Part shown: piece by piece, positions 2-1,321 of the stretch
How the letters are laid out: each line of letters starts with the position of its first letter
Position numbering within the stretch: the first letter of the stretch is position 1
Origin: an uncultured Pelagibacteraceae bacterium
GTDB taxonomy: Bacteria; Pseudomonadota; Alphaproteobacteria; Pelagibacterales; Pelagibacteraceae
Length of the DNA stretch: 34,898 bases
Direction of reading: 5' to 3'
NCBI GenBank assembly: GCA_902571095.1
Contig: CACGAV010000011.1
Location: forward strand, 1 to 34,898
Position numbers and translations under genes: made by a program
Notes under the pieces: generated by a model
Database searches by the model: none
The model's input: only the letters and a program-made list of their open reading frames with translations
What the model was told of the DNA's origin: nothing

Positions 2-265
2 TGCGCTAAATACGCTACTTTTGGTACTAGAAATTTATCTAAAAATATTTTGTCCGCACTAAAAAATAGATATGCTTGCTTAATATCAAATCATGGACAG
101 ATAGCTTTTGGAAAAAATTTAGATAGTGCTTTTGAACTTGCCCAAGAAGTAGAAAATATTTGCCAACAATATATAAATGCAATAAGAATAGGAATTCCTA
201 AAATTCTCTCAAAAAGAGAAATGAAAATTGTTTTAGGAAAAATGAAAAATTATAAAAGAAAGTAA
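2..265 (+). CDS. Class II aldolase/adducin family protein (FucA/AraD-like), C-terminal part
   Basis: The reading frame is open from the left edge of the window, so only the last 87 residues or so are present; the start lies outside. The segment YATFGTRNLS...SNHGQIAFGK matches the C-terminal half of the zinc-dependent class II aldolase family (L-fuculose-phosphate aldolase, ribulose-5-phosphate 4-epimerase, methylthioribulose-phosphate dehydratase). The His in SNHG is the third zinc ligand in this family. Members cleave or epimerise sugar phosphates; the substrate cannot be decided from this fragment. The stop is six bases before the speD-speE fusion start, so the two are probably co-transcribed. 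A TTG codon at 50 lies within the conserved domain and is not the real start. Confidence 0.8.
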   Translation, partial: CAKYATFGTRNLSKNILSALKNRYACLISNHGQIAFGKNLDSAFELAQEVENICQQYINAIRIGIPKILSKREMKIVLGKMKNYKRK

Positions 266-271
266 TTTTTT

Positions 272-1315
272 ATGAATAAAGTTGGTGAACACGTAACGAT
301 AGATTTTTTAGGTGTAAAAAAGGATTACACTCCTGATTTTTACAATAAAGTAATTTATAAAATTGCAAAAAAAGCCAAAATAGAAGTTTTAAATATTTCA
401 GAGAAAGTATTTAAGCCACAAGGATATACTTGTTTAGCACTTTTAGCAGAAAGTCATATGAGTTTTCATACTTTTCCAGAAAAAGGAATTATTAGCTTTG
501 ATTTTTTTACTTGCGGGAAGATTTCTCCCACTGCAGCTTTGGATGTTTTAAGGAACGAGATTAAACATAAAAGAGCAGTTGTTAGAAGTTTTGATCGAAG
601 TAACAAAGGTATTTACGAAGACATTTATAGCACTCCTGGTCATAAGAAATACTATGTTGTAACTGATGCAATAGAAAATTTTGTATCAAAAGTTGGACAG
701 CACATTGAAATTTTAAAACTTGAGGAATTTGGAAATTCTCTTTTTATCGATAGTGAATTACAGGTAGCTGAAAAGGATGAGAAAAGATATAGTACACAAT
801 TTGTGAATTCAGCTTTAAATTTGTCGAAGGATAATTCAAGCGCTGCAATTATTGGTGGCGGAGATGGCGGGGTTGCAAGAGAATTGATATCTAAAGGTTT
901 TGACTTAATCGATTGGTTTGAACTTGATCCAGAAGTAGTTAAAGTATGCCAAAAACATCTCCCAAAAATATTTGGAGAAGCAACCGCAAATAATAAAGTT
1001 AAGACTTATTGGGGGGATGCGTTTGAAAGCATTAAGAAAATTAAAGATCAAAAATATGATAAAGTTTTTGTTGATCTAAATGATGATGAATTTTGTATAA
1101 ATCTCGCATCAAAAAATATGAAAAGTTTAAAAAGAATTCTAAAACCTGGCGGCATTTTAACAGCTCAAGTTGGTTGCCAATCAAAAAAACCTAAACAAGT
1201 TAAAAATTGGATGGATTTACTCCAAACTAATTTTGGAAATGTCGTGCTTTCTGAAACTTATATACCAAGTTTTGATTGTAAATGGAATTTTGCTACTTCT
1301 CAAAGCCAAGAGTAA
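272..1315 (+). CDS. Fused S-adenosylmethionine decarboxylase / spermidine synthase-like protein
   Basis: A 347-residue protein carrying two consecutive polyamine enzymes. Residues 1 to about 120 are a prokaryotic AdoMet decarboxylase (SpeD/SpeH). The self-cleavage motif AESH has the pyruvoyl-forming Ser61, and His66 and Cys81 (in FFTCG) follow at the spacing seen in the Thermotoga enzyme (63, 68, 83). Residues about 127-347 are a spermidine-synthase-type aminopropyltransferase with the nucleotide-binding IIGGGDGGVARE motif at 193-204 and acidic FELDPEV at 216-222. Together they would make decarboxylated AdoMet and transfer its aminopropyl group to a diamine. Two synthase motifs are unusual: the usual DxxDPxGP reads DLNDDE (268-273), and the usual DEFxYHE reads DEKRYST (169-175). 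Both Asp of DxxD are kept. The acceptor amine may therefore differ from putrescine (inference). No Shine-Dalgarno sequence is visible. Confidence 0.88.
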   Translation: MNKVGEHVTIDFLGVKKDYTPDFYNKVIYKIAKKAKIEVLNISEKVFKPQGYTCLALLAESHMSFHTFPEKGIISFDFFTCGKISPTAALDVLRNEIKHKRAVVRSFDRSNKGIYEDIYSTPGHKKYYVVTDAIENFVSKVGQHIEILKLEEFGNSLFIDSELQVAEKDEKRYSTQFVNSALNLSKDNSSAAIIGGGDGGVARELISKGFDLIDWFELDPEVVKVCQKHLPKIFGEATANNKVKTYWGDAFESIKKIKDQKYDKVFVDLNDDEFCINLASKNMKSLKRILKPGGILTAQVGCQSKKPKQVKNWMDLLQTNFGNVVLSETYIPSFDCKWNFATSQSQE

Positions 1316-1321
1316 ATATAT

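Follow-up and report, generated by a model that had tools for sequence, protein, structure and literature searches.

A SAR11 AdoMet decarboxylase-aminopropyltransferase fusion of predicted relaxed specificity and its probable repeated capture by T4-like pelagiphages

The DNA analysed here, which we will henceforth refer to as the window, is a stretch of 34,898 nucleotides from an uncultured member of the Pelagibacteraceae (SAR11), whose assembly comprises 901,930 bases and is 80% complete. Near its left end lies a gene encoding an AdoMet decarboxylase (AdoMetDC; SpeD) fused to an aminopropyltransferase (SpeE), preceded by the end of a class II aldolase gene (Table 1); a Pfam scan for further genes in the window gave housekeeping genes only. 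The fusion gene starts with ATG and runs uninterrupted for 347 codons. Pfam AdoMet_dc covers residues 7-109 at 84.7 bits against a cut-off of 25, and Spermine_synth covers residues 170-346 at 89.2 bits against 22.9, both far above chance; TIGR03330 scored 90.3 bits against a curated cut-off of 75.65, as expected of a class 1b AdoMetDC. In an AlphaFold model built from 15 SAR11 sequences (mean pLDDT 85.7, pTM 0.66), residues 112-347 aligned with Pyrobaculum SpeE (7xif) at a VIA-align Z of 29.9. A sequence-only reading of this DNA had proposed a SpeD-SpeE fusion in one polypeptide, with Ser61, His66 and Cys81 in register with the Thermotoga enzyme. Both proposals were borne out, the former by the domain matches and the single intact frame (such fusions being already published for SAR11), the latter by alignment to S63, H68 and C83 of 1TLU at a constant offset of 2; the roles of these residues in T. 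maritima are described in the available part of PMC10407285.

Table 1. Features of the window and of the phage contigs carrying the fusion (positions with a locus prefix refer to phage contigs, all others to the window).
Feature	Position	Strand	Remarks
Class II aldolase gene, C-terminal end	2..265	+	Cut by contig end; Pfam Aldolase_II
speD-speE fusion gene, 347 aa proenzyme	272..1315	+	AdoMet decarboxylase + aminopropyltransferase; orthologues known
Class 1b AdoMet decarboxylase domain, residues 7-109	290..598	+	Pfam, TIGR03330, matches to 2iii/1tlu
Ser61 codon, predicted self-cleavage site and pyruvoyl source	452..454	+	Aligns to S63 of 1TLU
His66 codon, processing/catalysis	467..469	+	Aligns to H68 of 1TLU
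Cys81 codon, catalysis	512..514	+	Aligns to C83 of 1TLU
Aminopropyltransferase region, residues 111-347	602..1312	+	VIA-align to 7xif; Pfam Spermine_synth 170-346
DEKRYST, residues 169-175	776..796	+	Sample norm DEFxYHE or DEFxYQE
GGGDGG, residues 195-200, dcAdoMet-binding motif 2 of published scheme, SpmSyn form	854..871	+	
DLNDDE, residues 268-273	1073..1090	+	PxGP absent after retained DxxD; loop shortened by two residues in the alignment
Truncated C-terminus, IPSFDCKWNF + 7 residues + stop	1262..1315	+	Alignment to other transferases
Phage fusion copies, beside nrdB	L151:2807-3850, L152:4758-5801, L153:563-1603, L154:463-1497, L155:1780-2814, L162:6773-7813, L163:2-955		
Second-type phage fusion copy, near PAAR and baseplate wedge genes	L158:1-915		Cut by contig end

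The transferase part shows the fold and the catalytic DxxD pair (D268 and D271) by which the aminopropyltransferase superfamily is recognised, and it falls short of canonical SpeE: the window protein scored below the cut-offs of TIGR00417 (98.9 vs. 249.55) and PRK00811 (122.8 vs. 260 bits), and its DLND is not followed by the PxGP of the canonical DxxDPxGP loop. The motif letters DLNDDE and DEKRYST are present as the sequence-only reading had quoted them. Their supposed departure from DxxDPxGP and DEFxYHE is nonetheless partial, since in the alignment PxGP is gone while D268, D271 and Y173 are retained. We compared the SAR11 proteins with 25 non-SAR11 proteins (two of them nearly identical) from a sample of the best-scoring proteobacterial transferases: DxxDP was found in all 25, and all 25 extended 42-60 residues past the point at which the SAR11 rows end. 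The window protein accordingly lacks the C-terminal tail of about 45 residues that follows the IPTY/F strand in ordinary spermidine synthases. Within a SAR11 alignment of 117 rows (97 distinct), S61, H66, C81, E170, Y173, S174, D198, E217, D249, D268, L269, N270 and D271 were identical in every row, and within the quoted motifs T175 varied among T, S and G and E273 among E, D and Q. The departures from the spermidine synthase norm are thus fixed throughout SAR11, and human spermine synthase has some of them too. The protein also matches the GGGD(G/C)G plus motif-3 Glu pattern given for bacterial spermine synthases in the accessible text of PMC11107197 (D198, G200 and E217, the last of which would be the motif 3 Glu of that scheme). 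However, the scheme predicts spermine only and SAR11 fusions make both tetraamines (see below), meaning that the motifs do not settle specificity.

Human spermine synthase (3c6k and 3c6m) gave the best Foldseek matches to the window model, at 19% identity and an rmsd of about 8; it tops the list because the match covers both domains, whose relative orientation probably differs between the model and the human enzyme. Using a 200-residue human segment confirmed against 3c6k, we found that the two proteins share an AdoMetDC-like N-terminal domain, the absence of DPxGP (DLTAVP in the human enzyme) and an early C-terminus at the same end point, and that YHE is replaced by YT in the human enzyme and by YS in the SAR11 fusion. 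By contrast, the human N-terminal domain has no decarboxylase function according to the available part of PMC12803844, whereas the window SpeD domain keeps its catalytic residues. The same source derives animal spermine synthase from bacterial AdoMetDC-SpmSyn fusions. In our transferase tree the human and SAR11 sequences grouped together with 94/82 support on very long branches (5.8 and 4.1); the shared features are real, and given long branches on both sides we do not claim a sister relationship. Other proteobacterial SpeD-SpeE fusions (L127, L145 and L129) likewise have SpeD followed by SpeE in one open reading frame, here of about 450 codons, but they retain DLTDP, YHE and the C-terminal tail, and their transferase is only about 26-30% identical to that of SAR11. 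These and the SAR11 proteins are probably products of separate fusion events; Green et al. reportedly argued for a separate event in the other proteobacterial fusions.

The nearest named records to the window fusion are uncultured Pelagibacteraceae single-cell genomes (83-88% identity), and orthologues span 61-88%; both identity and the tree group the protein with Pelagibacteraceae copies. The possibility that the gene is split by sequencing error in relatives, or that the frame arose by chance, was ruled out: all 115 SAR11 loci fetched (96 distinct proteins) carry one frame of 346-350 aa. Pairwise dN/dS with three relatives was 0.04-0.06, pointing to purifying selection, with dS near saturation. 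Matches to the fusion were found in 29 of 61 genomes (the source genome included), all of them among the 37 from the same family, whereas the 24 from the order's other family had none. One same-family member with a 99% complete, one-contig genome (G034) lacks SpeD altogether, fused or otherwise; the gene is therefore widespread in the family without being present in every member. Two genomes of the sister family contain a stand-alone SpeD in 130-codon frames and no fusion (G039:C19:1471-1776 and G050:C3:141975-142289). Under one genus label (L002-L027), two versions of the fusion (84-88% vs. 63-66% identical to the window protein) occupy the same syntenic place and fall in different clades, which may reflect either replacement at the locus or a polyphyletic genus.

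The aldolase fragment in the window corresponds to the last gene of a methylthioadenosine (MTA) salvage operon seen in relatives. In L033 (87% identical) and in Ca. Pelagibacter ubique (L092), the fusion is preceded by apt (on the opposite strand), mtnP, mtnA and the class II aldolase gene, the gap between the last of these and the fusion being 6 bases in L033 and likewise short in L092; apt, mtnP and mtnA of L092 all exceed their NCBIfam cut-offs. We surveyed the 73 of 80 named loci with at least 3.7 kb of upstream sequence. In 50 of them apt, mtnP, mtnA and the aldolase gene lie directly before the fusion, so that the set associated with the DHAP shunt (mtnP, mtnA and class II aldolase; pathway described in the accessible part of PMC6302742) is present together there, while the window shows the aldolase end only. 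The aldolase gene is missing from 21 loci (apt, mtnP and mtnA in 18; mtnP and mtnA in 3), one locus has mtnA and the aldolase, and one the aldolase alone. We did not find mtnA elsewhere in the source genome, which is 80% complete and whose contig begins inside the aldolase gene. Aminopropyl transfer releases MTA as its by-product, so it makes sense for the fusion to share an operon with MTA phosphorylase, an isomerase and an aldolase; family membership and gene order suggest that the aldolase would make the operon a DHAP shunt. On the other side of the fusion, before a DUF6165 gene, lies a variable cargo slot, which is empty in the window (1316-1321) and holds an amino-acid ABC transporter in L033 and L039 (2.3 kb) and a nitrilase-family amidase in L092 (0.8 kb).

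A polyamine cluster lies elsewhere in the source genome, on contig C2 (L165:1370-5516), with AguA-like, AguB-like, DHS-like and ODC/ADC-like frames. The first two match agmatine deiminase and N-carbamoylputrescine amidase over their full length and under the cut-offs. The DHS homologue exceeds the cut-off for 1,9-bis(guanidino)-5-aza-nonane synthase (579 vs. 500 bits), which suggests guanidino-homospermidine as a candidate further SAR11 polyamine. The fourth is an ODC/DAPDC-fold protein of a kind that acts as arginine decarboxylase in P. ubique and Fonsibacter, according to the accessible portion of PMC9992855. We had considered arginase/agmatinase as a supplier of putrescine, but PF00491 matched nothing in the source genome (although it did in 29 of 61 relatives), and we turned instead to the AguA/AguB-like genes next to the ODC homologue.

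Enzymes of this type have been assayed. In the available passages of Li et al. 2024 (PMC11107197), the fusions of Ca. Pelagibacter ubique HTCC1062 (WP_011282223) and of HTCC7211 (WP_008544956) were expressed in E. coli. Both restored spermidine in a delta-speD strain, meaning that the decarboxylase is functional; from putrescine both made spermidine and then spermine and thermospermine in similar amounts, and from diaminopropane norspermidine. SAR11 culture work by Noell et al. 2021 proposes, in the part seen of PMC8437039, that SpeE is multifunctional and even reversible, and credits Green et al. 2011 for the SAR11 fusion and its broad substrates. The window protein shares about 66% identity with L092, the P. 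ubique copy, which stands in for the assayed HTCC1062 and HTCC7211 sequences; its catalytic residues are identical to those of L092, while it belongs to a different SAR11 lineage from the assayed strains, with which it shares domain order, a single frame and bacterial group, and is known from sequence only. By orthology, we infer that the window copy behaves like them. The suggestion of a different acceptor or a tuned activity therefore holds in so far as acceptor use is broad and fails in so far as putrescine use is not lost. The two quoted motifs are at most candidate causes of this breadth, given that the second half of each differs between SAR11 copies and that the catalytic residues are normal. 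By the same token, ordinary use of putrescine, which would speak for a plain spermidine synthase, is half of what was reported, the orthologues also making tetraamines and norspermidine.

We consider it very likely that the window gene encodes the SAR11 AdoMetDC-aminopropyltransferase fusion, self-cleaving and with a relaxed transferase that makes spermidine, spermine and thermospermine, and that the MTA released is recycled. By analogy with Thermotoga, the proenzyme would cleave itself before Ser61 and generate the pyruvoyl group; the transferase would then stay on the alpha chain, so that the mature enzyme would not be one chain. Channelling of decarboxylated AdoMet between the two parts, which the sequence-only reading had put forward, may occur. 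The SpeD part would decarboxylate AdoMet, and the C-terminal part would transfer the aminopropyl group to putrescine, giving spermidine, and then to either end of spermidine, giving spermine and thermospermine. Putrescine would come from arginine via the ADC-type ODC homologue and the AguA/AguB-like genes, judging from their presumed substrates, and the MtnP-MtnA-aldolase operon, of which the fusion is the last gene in relatives, would recycle MTA, judging from the families of its members.

Other explanations can be put forward. One is that a spermidine synthase of the ordinary kind has been joined to AdoMetDC and that its motifs changed by neutral drift, the genome being streamlined and AT-rich. 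The intact DxxD, Y173 and dcAdoMet site, the putrescine pathway in the genome and the spermidine produced by the orthologues (PMC11107197, as available) are all compatible with this, but drift fits poorly with changes shared by every SAR11 row and nearly every phage row, and the two orthologues' spermine, thermospermine and norspermidine argue against an ordinary synthase, which we thus regard as unlikely. That the main acceptor in the cell is agmatine, homospermidine or diaminopropane rather than putrescine, as the sequence-only reading had suggested, seems similarly doubtful. Although the ADC-type ODC and DHS homologues mean that agmatine derivatives may be present, and norspermidine is made from diaminopropane, the AguA- and AguB-like genes of the same cluster would convert agmatine to putrescine; moreover, in the accessible text of PMC11107197 aminopropylagmatine came from the Thermus thermospermine synthase alone among those tested (SAR11 fusions being unnamed there), and the homospermidine table does not include SAR11 fusions.

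A change of the SpeD domain itself into an arginine or ornithine decarboxylase has precedents, as some phage SpeD homologues have switched substrate, including that of pelagiphage HTVC201P (PMC9992855, portion available). For the window protein we consider such a shift highly improbable, given the complementation of delta-speD E. coli by SAR11 fusions (PMC11107197, likewise) and a TIGR03330 score above the cut-off. The HTFPE proline, which may be the one marked in the published figure, is also invariant in our alignment.

Related copies of the fusion were also found in viral DNA. While a scan of IMG/VR with the window protein alone returned no viral copy, a scan with the SAR11 family alignment matched nine contigs. 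Eight, from T4-like phages, encode the fusion (L151-L158; L162, L163 and L169 are further labels for contigs of this set), and the ninth (L159) holds a SpeD-like stretch only. Among 50,697 cultured-phage records, 128 matched and none covered 80% of the query, the 30 matches listed being SpeD-only; nine plasmid records matched, the best of which (Microvirga) has separate speD and speE. Six of the eight phage copies are complete (345-347 aa), with L157/L163 and L158 cut at contig ends, and all eight retain S61, H66, C81, D198, E217, D268 and D271. Pairwise dN/dS among four of them was 0.11-0.29 (Nei-Gojobori), and a model of the L151 protein (pLDDT 82.9) places helices and strands in a similar order. 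The activities of the phage proteins may differ from those of the SAR11 enzymes, since the substrate of some phage SpeD homologues has changed (PMC9992855).

In seven of the eight contigs the fusion adjoins nrdB, the gene for the ribonucleotide reductase small subunit. Specifically, it lies between nrdA and nrdB in L151, L152, L154, L155 and L156/L162, precedes nrdB in L163 (where the contig starts inside the fusion) and is flanked in L153 by a dehydrogenase-like frame and nrdB, with no NrdA before it. The contigs are 4.7-9.6 kb long, and their hosts are inferred from phage kinship: L151 encodes an NrdA and an NrdB with 88.5% and 89.6% identity to those of Pelagibacter phage Mosig EXVC030M, the nearest cultured phage, and the baseplate wedge protein of L158 is 59% identical to that of Mosig. 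The same nrd slot holds other genes in Mosig and HTVC008M. All seven nrd-type copies fall in a single clade (100/100; 83-100% identity) whose nearest SAR11 relative is L017 (67-69%), whereas L158 joins SAR11 L029 and L122 (100/100) and is 71% identical to L029. A single clade of all eight was rejected (AU p 2.25e-17); the L158 copy was thus acquired separately. Furthermore, the L153 and L151 fusions are 94% identical and their NrdB proteins only 68%, which suggests that the fusion has been transferred from one phage backbone to another.

Phage-borne polyamine genes as such have been described, as phage SpeD, phage or virus SpeD and SpeE pairs (PMC9992855) and ocean-virus speE (PMC11360552). 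As far as the accessible text of these sources goes, they are separate genes, whereas the IMG/VR contigs carry the SAR11-type fusion: the former, in which the word "fusion" does not occur, describes one phage whose AdoMetDC and SpdSyn are encoded separately, and the latter lists speE among ocean virus genes without the words "fusion", "SAR11" or "Pelagibacter", so that some of its speE may be the SAR11-type fusion. Spermidine is unmentioned in PMC9599517 and PMC7029224. A phage-borne speD-speE fusion was thus not seen in the literature covered and seems undescribed. T4-like pelagiphages probably took the host's spermidine/spermine/thermospermine-making fusion at least twice, one lineage carrying it beside the ribonucleotide reductase genes and moving it between backbones; an infected cell would then make tri- and tetraamines from host putrescine with one gene. 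No AdoMetDC-aminopropyltransferase fusion would have been known from a phage before.

The enzyme in the window is of a known type with a known broad specificity, tested in close relatives, and adds a lineage to a characterised family. Our analysis accounts for its odd motifs as a SAR11-wide, fixed feature partly shared with human spermine synthase, and links the fusion to the salvage of its by-product within one operon. The phage copies matter more than the window gene itself: with a single gene, phages of a bacterium that ranks among the most abundant in the ocean may control polyamine synthesis.
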